Below are positions 8,758-32,722 of a stretch of 64,000 bases of DNA, piece by piece. Positions within the stretch are counted from its first letter, which is position 1. Every line of letters starts with the position of its first letter. The DNA is from Limosilactobacillus avistercoris (GTDB lineage: Bacteria > Bacillota > Bacilli > Lactobacillales > Lactobacillaceae). The notes under the pieces are model-generated. The model made no database searches. It saw only the letters and a list, made by a program, of their open reading frames with translations, and was not told where the DNA came from. The DNA lies in contig NZ_JACSQW010000002.1 in the NCBI RefSeq assembly GCF_014836425.1, positions 1 through 64,000 on the forward strand, written 5' to 3'. A program made the translations under genes and the position numbers.

Positions 8758-9564
8758 TTAGGCAACTAAATTCTGCTCGTATTGGAGTGGTGTTTGGTTG
8801 CCTAGTTTTGTCTGTATTCGTCGTTCATTATAGAAATGAAGCCATTCTTCAATTGCCTGGATTAATTCATCGCGACTTCGATAACTAGTATCCTGGCCAA
8901 TCTCAGCTTTAAGTTTGCTAAAGACCGTTTCACAAGCGGCGTTATCTAAACAGGTTGCTCGATGAGACATGCTTTGTCGAATGTGTCCTTCACGCAAAAG
9001 CTTTCGCCAAGCGTGATGTTGGTAGTGCCATCCTTGATCGGTGTGAAGAGTTAATTGATAACCAGTATATGGTAACTGATCTAGTAACTTTTGCAGTGGT
9101 GTTAAGGCAAAATGGAGTGTAGGGCTTTGACCGATGGCCCAAGTTAAAATCTGCTTAGTGGCGAGATCTTTAATGACTTCCAGATAGACTTTTTGGCCGT
9201 TATATGCCTTAAATTCAGTAATGTCACAGACCATTTTCTGATATTTACGATTACTCATAAAGCGACGATTAAGCTTGTTCTTGGCCTTCTTACCGTTAGG
9301 ACCCTTGGAAGAATCGTATTTGCGCCGCCGCTGATTGTATTTAGTACATTTAAGATTCATCTCATGCATGAGGCGTTGGATTCGCTTGTGATTAGGAGCT
9401 GTTTTACCGATTAGCTGATAATAAGCGCGCACTTGGGCGCTAAGTCGTCGCACTCCATACTCGGCTTCATAGTAGTTAAACAGCCCTTTGATTACCGCTT
9501 TAAGCTCAAGTTCATCTTCGTTAGGGTACTTAAACTGTTTCTGCCAGTATTGGTAAGTCGACAT
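8758..9564 (-). CDS. IS3-family transposase OrfB (integrase core)
   Basis: A 268-residue catalytic half of the transposase. The DDE triad is readable as D114 (CDITEF), D176 (HTDQGWHY) and E212 (DNAACETVFSKLK), with 35 residues between the second D and E as in IS3 elements. An HTH_21-like segment lies at about residues 25-75 and NERRIQTKLGNQTPLQY ends the domain. The frame stays open upstream of this ATG to the A6G site at 9639-9645, so the natural product is an OrfAB fusion made by -1 frameshifting. OrfB itself looks intact. Confidence 0.92.
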   Translation of the reverse strand: MSTYQYWQKQFKYPNEDELELKAVIKGLFNYYEAEYGVRRLSAQVRAYYQLIGKTAPNHKRIQRLMHEMNLKCTKYNQRRRKYDSSKGPNGKKAKNKLNRRFMSNRKYQKMVCDITEFKAYNGQKVYLEVIKDLATKQILTWAIGQSPTLHFALTPLQKLLDQLPYTGYQLTLHTDQGWHYQHHAWRKLLREGHIRQSMSHRATCLDNAACETVFSKLKAEIGQDTSYRSRDELIQAIEEWLHFYNERRIQTKLGNQTPLQYEQNLVA

Positions 9565-9623
9565 CGAAATTGGGAGCGCATCAATTAAGTCCTTTAACAG
9601 GTATTTAGCCTTGAGTTCATTAA

Positions 9624-10135
9624 TTACTTGCGCAAGTTCTTTTTTGGATGCTTTCTCAAGGCTGTCAATTTTTTGAGGCGTCGAGTTGTATCTTTAATAA
9701 TAAGTTTTCTCTTTGTAGAGCTTGATTCTGTTTTTGGAGTTGAAGTAGTTGTTGGTCTCGATCCTTGTCGTGTTGTGTGACCATTTTTAGGTTTCCTTCC
9801 GCGGCGTAATTCTAATAAAGCTTGCGGCCTTGCTTATTATAAAGAGCTTCCCATTTAAATATTGAACCGGGCGATCGAAAGGCAAAGTGAATACAAGTTT
9901 CAGAAATTGATGCCAAATTTTCTTGTTTCCACTTTACCAGATTCAGCCGGAAATCCCCAGTCACTTTAGGTGGATTGAGCAGTGCCTGTTTACCAAATTT
10001 TGCATAAATTCCCACGCAAATTTGAAATTCTAGTTTAGAGATTCCGTATTTGCTCCTTATAGCAGTTAAGCTAGCTGTTCCATTGGCATACTCCTCAACG
10101 GCTTTAATCTTAGTGTTAATACTAATTTTAGTCAT
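9624..10135 (-). pseudogene. IS3-family transposase OrfA, frameshifted
   Basis: An N-terminal helix-turn-helix protein (MTKISINTKIKAVEEY, then PPKVTGDFRLN) is readable to a TAG at 9814-9812. The next bases in another frame give ALLELRRGRKPK, the expected OrfA continuation, and after an extra A the original frame resumes with a coiled-coil-like Q-rich stretch, then hits TGA; a third shift restores KKLTALRKHPKK to the natural stop at 9624. So two to three small indels break the gene. The start is ATG 10135 with gggggt upstream, buried in a hairpin. Confidence 0.78.
9639..9645 (-). other. programmed -1 frameshift heptamer (A AAA AAG)
   Basis: Read on the minus strand the bases are AAAAAAG, with the OrfA zero frame CCA AAA AAG. 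A -1 slip gives AAA GAA CTT, exactly the OrfB frame. This is the heptamer known from IS3-group elements. Confidence 0.8.
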
Positions 10136-10140
10136 AAAAA

Positions 10141-10173
10141 TACCCCCAGAGTTGATTTCCAACTCTGGGGGTA
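10141..10173 (-). promoter_or_regulatory. hairpin sequestering the transposase ribosome-binding site
   Basis: A 14-bp perfect stem (tacccccagagttg with its complement at 10160-10173) and a 5-base loop lie immediately before the orfA ATG. On the minus-strand mRNA the 3' arm contains the gggggt binding site. In known IS elements such a structure stops translation of transcripts entering from flanking genes. Confidence 0.7.
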
Positions 10174-11377: not shown

Positions 11378-12226
11378 GTGAAAAAGATTGAGCGTGCTGA
11401 AAATTTGGTTCAAAGTCATCTTGAACTATTTCAATGTCCTGTTTGTCACCATCGTTATTTGAATTTAACCGGAAATTCGCTTGTTTGTGAAAAGGGTCAT
11501 ACAATTGATTTTAACCGTCATGGCTACCTTCATTTTTTAAATACCCAGGGAACAACAGAATATGATCGGGCAATGTTTATCTCACGACGAAAATTACTTT
11601 CTGCAGGATTATTTAAACCAATTATTGAACGGGTTAATCAATTCCTCCCGGCAACTCCTCAAACAATTCTTGATGTGGGTACAGGGGAAGGAACACCGCT
11701 AGCACAATTAGCATTGCTTCGAAAAGATCGGGATTTTTATGTTGGTTTTGACATTTCAAAACCTGGGATTACTTTGGCAACTCAACTTGATACGAAGGCT
11801 TTCTTTTGTATTGCTGATCTTCGTCAGTTGCCATTTGTTGACCAATCCTTTGATACAGTTTTAGAACTGTTTTCTCCGTCTGATTATCGAGAATTTAATC
11901 GAGTCTTAAAAGAAGATGGCCTCCTAATTAAGGTAATTCCTAATGCAGACTATCTCTTGGAATTGAGACACTTATTATATGGAAACAAAGATCAACATTA
12001 CCACTATGATAATAGTAAGGTCCTTGAATTATTTAAGAAGCACTACCCGGATGCACAGGTGATTCGTGTCCGGTACCAATTTGATCTTCCTAAAGAATTA
12101 ATCACGGATATGGTTAAGATGACGCCGATGAGTTGGGGGAAGAATGTCCAACACCTTACCGATGATGAATTGGCAAAACTTCACTCAATTACCGTTGATG
12201 TTAGCCTATTGGTAGGGAGAAAGTGA
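11378..12226 (+). CDS. rlmA: 23S rRNA (guanine-N1)-methyltransferase RlmA type
   Basis: A 282-residue SAM-dependent methyltransferase. The N-terminal zinc site is C20-x2-C23 with C37 and H41. The SAM-binding loop LDVGTGEGTPL is near residue 98. RlmA proteins methylate G745 or G748 in the helix 35 hairpin of 23S rRNA; Gram-positive members are usually the G748 type, which I infer rather than see. The start is GTG with aggaga upstream. It is monocistronic, divergent from pgl. Confidence 0.9.
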   Translation: MKKIERAENLVQSHLELFQCPVCHHRYLNLTGNSLVCEKGHTIDFNRHGYLHFLNTQGTTEYDRAMFISRRKLLSAGLFKPIIERVNQFLPATPQTILDVGTGEGTPLAQLALLRKDRDFYVGFDISKPGITLATQLDTKAFFCIADLRQLPFVDQSFDTVLELFSPSDYREFNRVLKEDGLLIKVIPNADYLLELRHLLYGNKDQHYHYDNSKVLELFKKHYPDAQVIRVRYQFDLPKELITDMVKMTPMSWGKNVQHLTDDELAKLHSITVDVSLLVGRK

Positions 12227-12274: not shown

Positions 12275-12303
12275 TTGCCAATCTTAATTAAAAGTGGTAA
12301 AAT
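12275..12303 (+). promoter_or_regulatory. promoter for the leader RNA upstream of trmL
   Basis: TTGCCA (12275-12280) and TAAAAT (12298-12303) are separated by exactly 17 bases. Transcription would begin near 12310, about 126 bases before trmL. Confidence 0.75.
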
Positions 12304-12309
12304 ACTTTA

Positions 12310-12418
12310 TGGGAAATCGTTTGGCAATTGACATCGAACAGATTCGTTGGTAATTGCCAAAGAGTACTTCATTAAAGCAGCGTTTCGCCGTGCCAACACC
12401 GAGACCCTGCTTTTTTTA
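12310..12418 (+). ncRNA. candidate structured leader RNA or small RNA before trmL
   Basis: Between the promoter and trmL lie two hairpins. H1 (12320-12361) has a perfect 10-bp stem (tttggcaatt and aattgccaaa) topped by an inner cgaa/ttcg stem. H2 (12374-12413) pairs aaagcag with ctgcttt and gtttcg with cgagac, and is followed by seven T, so it looks like a terminator. The loop of H2 contains tgccaa, complementary to ttggca in H1, allowing an alternative fold. I do not recognise a known family: it is not SRP RNA, T-box, tmRNA or 6S by any motif I can see. It may be an attenuator for trmL or an independent small RNA. Confidence 0.55.
12374..12418 (+). terminator. terminator hairpin before trmL
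   Basis: Stem aaagcag/ctgcttt plus an inner gtttcg/cgagac helix, followed by a T run. It would stop most transcripts from the promoter at 12275 unless an alternative fold forms. Confidence 0.7.
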
Positions 12419-12435
12419 TTTGTCTAAGGAGAATT

Positions 12436-12948
12436 ATGATGACAAACCATATTGTATTATTTGAACCATTGTTTCCTGCAAATACTGGGAATATTGCCCG
12501 GACATGCGCCGGGACGAATACGGAATTACATTTAATTAAGCCGCTTGGATTTTCAACGGATGATAAGCACATGAAGAGAGCGGGATTAGATTATTGGGAT
12601 AAGGTAAAAATTACCTATCATGATGATCTGCGCGAGTTTATTTCTACCGTTCCTGATATTAGTAAGCTATACCTTGTATCTAAATTTGCAAGCCGTGACT
12701 ATACTGATGTTGACTATACAACTTCTGGGGATCACTATTTCCTGTTTGGTAAGGAAACGACCGGGTTACCAGAAGAATTTATGCGTCGGTATCCAGAAAA
12801 TGCTATTCGAATTCCGCAAAACGATAACAATATCCGGGCATTAAACTTGTCGAATAGTGCGGCAATTGTGATCTACGAGGCCCTTCGTCAGCAAAGCTTT
12901 CCAAATTTAGCACGGGTTCATAAATATCACTTTGATAAATTAAAATAA
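12436..12948 (+). CDS. trmL: tRNA (cytidine(34)-2'-O)-methyltransferase TrmL
   Basis: A 170-residue SPOUT methyltransferase that 2'-O-methylates the wobble base of tRNA-Leu isoacceptors. Knot motifs are visible: NTGNIARTCAG near residue 18, LFGKETTGLP near residue 100, and the C-terminal RIPQNDNNIRALNLSNSAA segment. A site aaggaga precedes two consecutive ATGs; the second (12439) is equally possible. ftsK follows closely and may be cotranscribed. Confidence 0.95.
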   Translation: MMTNHIVLFEPLFPANTGNIARTCAGTNTELHLIKPLGFSTDDKHMKRAGLDYWDKVKITYHDDLREFISTVPDISKLYLVSKFASRDYTDVDYTTSGDHYFLFGKETTGLPEEFMRRYPENAIRIPQNDNNIRALNLSNSAAIVIYEALRQQSFPNLARVHKYHFDKLK

Positions 12949-29651: not shown

Positions 29652-29889
29652 GTAAAAACGTTGAGGGACATTAGCAAGGCATGAACGGTTCAGCGAGTTA
29701 GCAAAAGGTGTGAGGTTAACACTTAGTACTGCGTTGCTTGATCGGTCCTGAGTACCTAACTGAATTTTTAAGTTAGGTCGGTTCATTACCGTTAATCAAT
29801 GATTGAGGGGGTATTTGGAAAGTCGAATATCCTGAAAACGGGTGGTACCACGAGAAAACTTCGTCCCAATTAGGGGTGAAGTTTTTTTA
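29652..29889 (+). promoter_or_regulatory. T-box riboswitch controlling ileS
   Basis: A long leader just before ileS with a stem I region (29660-29765) carrying AGTA and GGTTCAGCGAG-like elements, the conserved antiterminator sequence cgggtggtaccacg (29839-29852), and a terminator (aaaacttcgtccc with ggggtgaagtttt, then T7). Uncharged cognate tRNA stabilises the antiterminator. ATC at 29741-29743 is a plausible isoleucine specifier, consistent with the downstream gene, but I did not fold stem I rigorously. Confidence 0.93.
29856..29889 (+). terminator. regulated terminator of the ileS T-box
   Basis: Stem aaaacttc.. with ..gaagtttt around an aatt loop, followed by seven T. It competes with the antiterminator that contains ggtggtacc. 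Confidence 0.88.
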
Positions 29890-29926
29890 TTTACTAATTA
29901 TAAAAAATATGGAAGGAGAATTGCAT

Positions 29927-32722
29927 ATGCGGGTTAAAGATACCTTAAATTTGGGTAAAACCAAGTTCCCAATGCGGGGAAAATTACCAGTCACAGAAGC
30001 ACAACGTGAAAGTGTCTGGGAAGAAAATAAAGTATATGAATTACGGCAAAAATTAAATGAGGGGAAACCAACATTTATTCTTCACGATGGTCCTCCATAC
30101 GCCAACGGTAATATTCATATTGGTCACGCCATGAATAAGATTTCAAAGGACTTTATTGTTCGTTACAAGTCAATGAGTGGTTACCGCTCACCATATGTTC
30201 CAGGATGGGATACTCACGGGTTACCGATCGAACACCAATTGACTAAGGCTGGTTATGACCGGAAAAAGATGAGTTTAACCGAATTCCGTGATCTTTGTCG
30301 GAAATATGCTTTGGAACAAGTTGATAAACAACGAACTGACTTTAAGCGTTTAGGTGTTAGTGCTGACTGGGATCACCCATACCTAACATTGAATAAGGAA
30401 TTTGAGGCTGCTCAAATTCGTGTCTTTGGTGAATTTGCTAAGAAGGGCCTTCTTTACCAAGCTAAGAAACCTGTTTATTGGTCATGGTCATCTGAATCAG
30501 CATTGGCTGAAGCAGAAGTTGAATACCATGATGTTACTGCTAAGACAGCCTTCTTTGCTGAACAAGTGAAGGATGGTAAGGGTGTTCTAGATAATAATAC
30601 CTACTTAGTAGTTTGGACGACCACCCCATGGACTATTCCAGCTTCAGAGGCGGTTGCTGTAAACGCTAAGTTTGATTATTCTGTTGTTAAGCCAGCAAAC
30701 GACGAACGGCAATTTGTTGTTGCTACTGACTTGCTTGACGGTTTAGCTGAAAAGCTTGGCTGGGAAGATTATAAAGTAGTTAAGCACTTAGCTGGTAAGG
30801 AACTTGAAGGATTAACCACTCAACACCCATACCTTGATCGTGATTTATTAGTTGGGGTTGCAGATTACGTTACTGCTGATGCTGGTACTGGATTAGTTCA
30901 CACTGCACCAGGTTATGGTGATGATGACTACAACTTTGGGAAGAAGTATGATTTACCAATCTTTGCTCCAATTAATGATCAAGGGGTATTGACGAAAGAA
31001 AATGGTGAGGACTTTGATGGTGTCTTCTATCAAAAGGCTGATGATATTTCACTTCAAAAGTTGGAAGATAACAATGCCCTTTTACTTGAAGAACCATTAA
31101 ATCACAGTTACCCATTTGACTGGCGGACAAAGAAGCCAATCATTTTCCGGGCAACAGATCAATGGTTTGTTTCTATCGAAAAGATGCGGCAAAACATTTT
31201 AGATGCTTTGGAAAACGTTAAGTACTACCCAGAATGGGGTAAGGTTCGTTTGCGCAACATGATCAAAGACCGTGGTGACTGGGTAATTTCTCGTCAACGT
31301 GTTTGGGGTGTTCCATTGCCAATCTTCTATGCCGAAGATGGTACACCAATCATGGAAGAAGAAACAATTAACCATGTGGCCGATCTCTTTAGAAAGTATG
31401 GTTCTAACGTTTGGTTTGAACGTAATGCAAAGGATCTTCTTCCCGAAGGCTACACTAATGAGCATTCACCTCATGGGAAGTTTACTAAGGAAACTGACAT
31501 TATGGATGTCTGGTTTGATTCTGGTTCTTCTCACCAAGGAGTATTAACTGAACGTGACTACTTGACATATCCAGCTGATCTTTACCTTGAAGGTTCAGAT
31601 CAATACCGTGGATGGTTTAATTCTAGTTTGATTACCAGTGTTGTTTGCTCAGGGCAAGCACCATACAAGTCAATTATTTCTCAAGGATTTACCCTTGATA
31701 AGCGTGGCAACAAGATGAGTAAGTCTCAAGGAAATGTTATTGATCCGAACAAGGTTGTCCAACAAATGGGTGCTGAAATTATCCGTCTTTGGGTAATGAG
31801 TGCTGATACCTCTGCTGATGTTCGGGTTTCAATGGGAACTTTCCAACAAATCTCTGAAGCTTACCGTAAGTTACGGAATACTTTCCGCTTCTTGCTTGCT
31901 AATACTAGTGATTTTGACGCTAGTGAAGATACTGTTTCATATGAATACTTGAGTTCAGTTGATCAATACATGCTCGTTAAGTTAAACCACTTTCTTAAGA
32001 AGATGCGGGCTGATTTCGATAACTATGACTTCCTTGATGCTTACCGGTTATTAATTAATTTTGTTAATAATGACTTGTCAGCCTTCTACATGAACGTTGC
32101 TAAGGATGTTCTTTACATTGAACCTGAGAATTCATGGACTCGTCGTTCTATGCAAACAGTCTTCTATGACATCTTACTAACAATGGTTAAGTTGCTTACC
32201 CCAATTCTTCCTCACACGACTGAAGAAGTTTGGAGCTACATGAATGAACCTGAAGAATTCGTTCAATTAACAGAAATTCCTGAAGTTCGTCACTTTGATG
32301 GTGAAGATGGCTTACTAGACAAGTGGTCAGAATTTATGGAAGTTCGTTCTCATGTATTGAAGAGTCTTGAAGAAGCACGGAATGCCAAAATGATTGGTAA
32401 ATCACTAGAAGCACAAATTGACCTTTATGTTAACGACCATAATAAGAAATTATTAGAGAGTCTGAATGCAGATGTTCAATTATTACTTGGTGTTTCAAAA
32501 CTAGTTCTTCATTCTCTTGATGAAGCGGATGAAGATACCGATCAATATAACGATGGAGTTGCCGTTAAGGTCAGTGTTGCCCCAGGTGAAACTTGTCAAC
32601 GTTGTCGGATGGTGAAGGAAGATGTTGGTTCAGACTCAGCATACCCAACCCTTTGTGCTCGTTGTGCTAAGGTTGTCCGGGAAAACTTCCCAGAAACTGT
32701 TGATGAAGGCTTAGAAAAATAG
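29927..32722 (+). CDS. ileS: isoleucine--tRNA ligase
   Basis: A 931-residue class Ia synthetase. The HIGH-type motif GNIHIGHA is near residue 58, the editing CP1 domain follows ([13 protein letters not shown] near 225), the KMSKS motif NKMSKSQGN is near 596, and a C-terminal zinc site is formed by two CxxC pairs (CQRC and CARC, near 890 and 911). The ATG has ggaaggag; the frame opens upstream but in leader sequence. Expression is under the T-box. Confidence 0.98.

Follow-up and report, generated by a model that had tools for sequence, protein, structure and literature searches.

The 23S-methyl RNA family (Rfam RF01065), which Rfam types as Cis-reg, groups RNAs of the Lactobacillales made of two hairpins, the second of them an intrinsic terminator, that precede a methyltransferase gene. 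The family name points to a position upstream of a gene for a methyltransferase said to act on 23S rRNA. Transcribed homologues have been recorded by dRNA-seq and Northern blot in Enterococcus faecalis (sRNA_111) and E. faecium (sRNA_106) (PMC7724050), and the homologue of Streptococcus pyogenes has been listed both as a 5'UTR element (PMC6431027) and, in S. pyogenes M49, as an 84-nt intergenic RNA (PMC3542284). The main text of the enterococcal Grad-seq paper contains no mention of the 23S-methyl RNA, and no functional study of the family was found in the literature searched.

The window analysed here is a stretch of 64,000 nucleotides from Limosilactobacillus avistercoris. An earlier note, made from its letters, had described an RNA of two hairpins that stands before trmL, starts from a promoter of its own and ends in a terminator, with a mutually exclusive fold and no match to any recognised RNA family. 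The architecture stands, and the fold is taken up below; the claim of novelty was wrong. The Rfam search that the note had itself proposed returned a full-length match to RF01065 (Table 1), and the element is hence a copy of an already catalogued family. Between 12200 and 12500 there was no match to the T-box (RF00230) or to any Rfam family besides RF01065. Other features were observed elsewhere in the window: ten tRNA genes clustered at 1-822 on the plus strand (Rfam), an ordinary T-box leader (RF00230, 94.4 bits, 29652-29871, plus strand) directly before an isoleucyl-tRNA synthetase-like gene (ORF 29876-32722) and, by eye, an adjacent ORF pair resembling an IS3-type transposase (8758-10162, minus strand; integrase-like at 8758-9564 and helix-turn-helix-like at 9812-10162).

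Of 395 Lactobacillales genomes sampled, 275 contain the RNA, as do 120 of 201 from the window's own family; a single copy, with no further ones, was found in the window's genome. In one negative genome (G227, locus L209) trmL stands directly 3' of rlmA and the RNA is absent between them. In another Rfam-negative genome (G318, L211), a diverged copy with a terminator of the 23S-methyl type precedes trmL and had been missed by the search.

Anatomy and conservation of the RNA

The features of the locus are collected in Table 1. The near-consensus promoter with 17-base spacing noted earlier is present, with an extended -10 TG in addition, and predicts a transcript of ~109 nt (12310-12418). The two successive hairpins before trmL were likewise borne out: the perfect 10-bp helix is the outer stem of P1 (12320-12329 paired with 12352-12361), the inner stem of which is irregular, and the terminator hairpin (12374-12413) ends in seven U residues at 12411-12417. 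The latter contains a C-C mismatch (12381/12406) and the two-nucleotide CC bulge, which probably explain why a simple terminator scan does not list it. Folding of 12310-12418 yielded -35.7 kcal/mol (z -4.6), and none of 200 shuffles reached so low an energy.

Table 1. Features of the 23S-methyl locus in the window
Feature	Position	Strand	Basis or remark
rlmA-type 23S rRNA (guanine-N1) methyltransferase gene, directly upstream	11378-12226	+	NCBIfam NF008300, E 3e-41, below equivalog cut-off
Promoter TTGCCA-17-TAAAAT, extended -10 TG at 12295-12296	12275-12303	+	start predicted at ~12310
23S-methyl RNA (RF01065), entire motif	12317-12418	+	Rfam covariance model matched over its whole length (1-102 of 102), 72 bits against a gathering score of 50
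Hairpin P1	12320-12361	+	covariation, order-wide and inside the genus
Single-stranded linker GAGUACUUCAUU, conserved	12362-12373	+	alignments
Intrinsic terminator hairpin and U-run; bulge CC at 12388-12389; invariant core G-[C N]-G...C-C	12374-12418	+	covariation, genus invariance
trmL ribosome-binding site AAGGAG	12426-12431	+	sequence reading
trmL, tRNA U34/C34 2'-O-methyltransferase gene	12436-12948	+	TIGR00185, 193.4 bits, cut-off 190.6 (equivalog)

An order-wide alignment of 77 non-redundant copies from eight families, a check in relatives of the kind proposed by the earlier note, revealed strong compensatory change in both hairpins. Over the two hairpins, 91.7% of the cells are paired and 27 of 30 pairs have changed on both sides, with a covariation score of 0.557, against 0.222 in shuffled alignments (none of 500 reached the observed score) and at most 0.143 when the partners were slid. 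The structure is therefore not a product of chance. All 14 P1 pairs have changed on both sides across the order, and the terminator taken alone is 95.4% paired, with a covariation score of 0.499 (0.174 shuffled). The position of the promoter is also kept: a TTG/-10 pair with a score of 7 or more out of 12 was detected in 73 of the 77 copies, compared with ~13 in shuffles, and the -10 element most often ends 13-14 nt before the motif.

Within the window's genus (nine species), double changes were observed in eight P1 pairs, and all 16 terminator pairs are fixed. The linker and terminator are 96% identical in the genus, as opposed to 74% for trmL DNA, 74% for P1, 60% for rlmA DNA and 50% for the promoter stretch, and 47 of the 51 linker-plus-terminator columns are invariant. 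Across the order, the invariant part of the terminator is a core of two G-C pairs with a two-base bulge between them, in which C always comes first; the inner stem beyond this core covaries (GUG/CAC, GAG/CUC). A plain terminator has no need of such a bulged core. The terminator hairpin thus appears to be conserved beyond what termination demands, and the simplest reading of its core is a putative binding site.

The mutually exclusive fold fared differently. The complementarity between ttggca (12321-12326) and tgccaa (12391-12396) is literally present in the window; among the 77 copies, however, only the window's holds both UUGGCA and UGCCAA, and the mean duplex energy within sequences (-2.68) matches that with permuted partners (-2.71; p 0.57). 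A second candidate for a general antiterminator, a helix between the 3' arm of P1 and the stretch leading into the terminator, does not occur in the window and reached no significance when all 77 sequences were taken together. This helix is strong in part of families f3 and f9, with compensatory changes there; its p of 0.024 comes from a subset of seven chosen after inspection and is therefore no more than suggestive. Overall, permutation tests over the 77 sequences detected no conserved antiterminator helix (p 0.57 and 0.47), and a classical antiterminator switch is not visible in the window's copy.

Genomic neighbourhood of the RNA

The gene immediately after the RNA is trmL in most loci. 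For families f2, f5 and f7 it is mostly queG (epoxyqueuosine reductase, TIGR00276), with trmL next to queG where the sequence reaches, sometimes after ddl. Both enzymes, TrmL and QueG, modify the wobble base of tRNAs. The gene rlmA lies upstream of the RNA in ~118 of 170 loci and in many families; it is missing from that place in all 11 loci of f4 and in 23 of the 84 loci of f1. The name 23S-methyl is therefore misleading, since the 23S rRNA enzyme is encoded upstream and the gene led into is trmL.

The distance from the end of the motif to the trmL start codon is 18 nt in the window, and the ribosome-binding site falls inside this gap. There is no space in it for another promoter, and hence transcription of trmL has to pass through the terminator. 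The window thereby presents the arrangement expected of an attenuator of any type, with a terminator between promoter and gene and no other promoter for trmL. Gaps of 45 nt or less were found in 53 of 140 loci; the median is 104 nt in family f3, where trmL could carry a promoter of its own.

In genus g11 the RNA and trmL have become separated naturally, so that a role of the RNA itself can be assessed there without a cis effect. The two are parted by brnQ, a convergent gene encoded on the opposite strand, and in genome G275 trmL is found ~2.4 kb further on. Across six g11 species the RNA is 93.5% identical (97.6% over its last 51 nt) and its promoter 79%; identity amounts to 71.5% for rlmA DNA and to only 30% for the 60 bases just downstream of the RNA. 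Separation was also observed elsewhere: three g6 loci have a convergent gene in between, and trmL is far off or displaced in G002, G042 and G013. The RNA has traits expected of a trans-acting small RNA, as it carries a promoter and a terminator and is conserved whether or not the neighbouring gene stays in place. A leader acting purely in cis should decay where trmL is separated, and the persistence of the RNA is the strongest hint at a function of its own. The g11 conservation suggests that such a function exists and does not indicate its nature; the g11 RNA could also act in part as a terminator for rlmA.

Possible modes of action

Of the two roles proposed in the earlier note, attenuator-type leader and free small RNA, both remain plausible, singly or together, and the enterococcal homologue has been detected as a transcript with dRNA-seq and on Northern blots (PMC7724050). 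No result pointed to tRNA or translation state, which the note had suggested, as the signal sensed. The reading that we consider the probable one unites them: a separately promoted small RNA that doubles as a read-through leader of trmL, with a terminator hairpin that putatively binds a factor. The promoter would generate the ~109-nt RNA with P1, the conserved linker and the bulged terminator. Every likely path into trmL, whether from this promoter or from rlmA, would cross the terminator, and trmL expression would therefore hang on read-through. Most transcripts would end as free small RNA and the rest would read into trmL. The bulged terminator hairpin and the linker would together form the putative binding site, with a protein as the most likely partner, and the bound factor may set both termination and RNA stability and provide the RNA with a separate role. 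We infer the latter because the RNA has hardly changed at loci where trmL has ceased to follow it; that read-through is controlled, that a factor binds and that the free RNA has a function are likewise deductions from comparative evidence.

A purely cis-acting attenuator, in which TrmL or another factor would bind the nascent leader, alter termination and exert feedback on trmL, leaving the free RNA functionless, is a possible but less favoured explanation. The location directly before trmL or queG-trmL at most loci, the lack of room for another promoter in the window and the Cis-reg type assigned by Rfam are consistent with it. Conservation of the RNA where a convergent gene separates it from trmL argues against it, as does the observation, by inspection, that the conserved parts hold no obvious copy of the anticodon-loop substrate of TrmL. 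The converse, that the RNA acts in trans alone, as a small RNA or by binding a protein, and adjoins trmL with unregulated read-through, appears unlikely. It would account for the separate promoter and terminator, for persistence without trmL behind or rlmA before, for the conservation in g11 and for the stable signal on enterococcal Northern blots (PMC7724050), but not for the association with trmL or queG-trmL kept in most genomes, nor for a trmL gene that has no other promoter in the window.

An ordinary rlmA terminator combined with a promoter for trmL, playing no part in regulation, is disfavoured and very improbable: both signals do sit between the two genes, yet the promoter precedes the terminator instead of following it, P1 covaries and conservation of the terminator exceeds that of trmL DNA. 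Finally, a leader-peptide attenuator based on the 14-codon ORF that starts at ATG 12309, at the predicted 5' end (MGNRLAIDIEQIRW), can be put aside as scarcely credible: the ORF contains one UUG codon, read by a substrate tRNA of TrmL, but leaves no room for a ribosome-binding site and is not conserved, any ATG near the 5' end being present in only 22 of the 77 relatives, at differing places and with differing lengths.

Comparison with tRNA-associated terminators and known leaders

Weak second Rfam hits in some genomes correspond mostly to terminators just 3' of tRNA-Lys(CTT) genes or of a tRNA operon. As 23S-methyl copies they were rejected: they are not full motifs, and a few lie beside apparent tRNA remnants. 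Some tRNA-Lys(CTT) genes of the Lactobacillaceae (L153-L160, L244-L273) end in a terminator with the bulged core; it was observed at ~6 of 30 tRNA-Lys loci of the family, with inner stems that covary (GUG/CAC, GCG/CGC, GCU/AGC, GCC/GGC). These terminators hence have the bulged core in common with the 23S-methyl RNA, but follow a tRNA instead of P1. At L154 and L158, an apparent remnant of a tRNA-Lys 3' end is followed by a terminator of this bulged-core type, and genome G490 contains a complete tRNA-Lys copy (L153) ~8 kb from the remnant; the remnants look like duplications through integration at tRNA-Lys.

Family f8 presents a related order of tRNA-Gly(TCC), a weakly similar terminator, queG and trmL (L235, 863-998; L236, minus strand, ~1311-1443). 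This unit precedes queG-trmL as the 23S-methyl RNA does, and the tRNA occupies the place that P1 has elsewhere; its terminator differs in having no CN bulge and in matching weakly (E ~1e-3 per genome). Outside the Lactobacillales, no tRNA was found near trmL at 23 other Bacilli loci, several of which end short of queG on the upstream side.

A wider proposal, which we put forward tentatively, is that the 23S-methyl RNA is a small RNA in its own right and that the bulged hairpin of its terminator would bind a factor also acting on some tRNA gene terminators. In most Lactobacillales this RNA would double as the read-through leader of queG-trmL, tying the factor to tRNA modification.

With T-box and leader-peptide attenuators, the 23S-methyl locus has in common an intrinsic terminator between promoter and gene, but it differs from them in having no T-box match, no conserved leader ORF and no conserved antiterminator helix. 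Compared with RF01065 as catalogued, the window's copy differs in nothing within the motif; the gene it leads into is that of a tRNA methyltransferase, with rlmA upstream. What is added here to the description of the family is this tRNA wobble methyltransferase as the gene led into, the retention of the RNA in g11 and the conservation of the terminator core beyond termination. This comparative evidence sharpens the functional question posed by a catalogued but unexplained RNA family.
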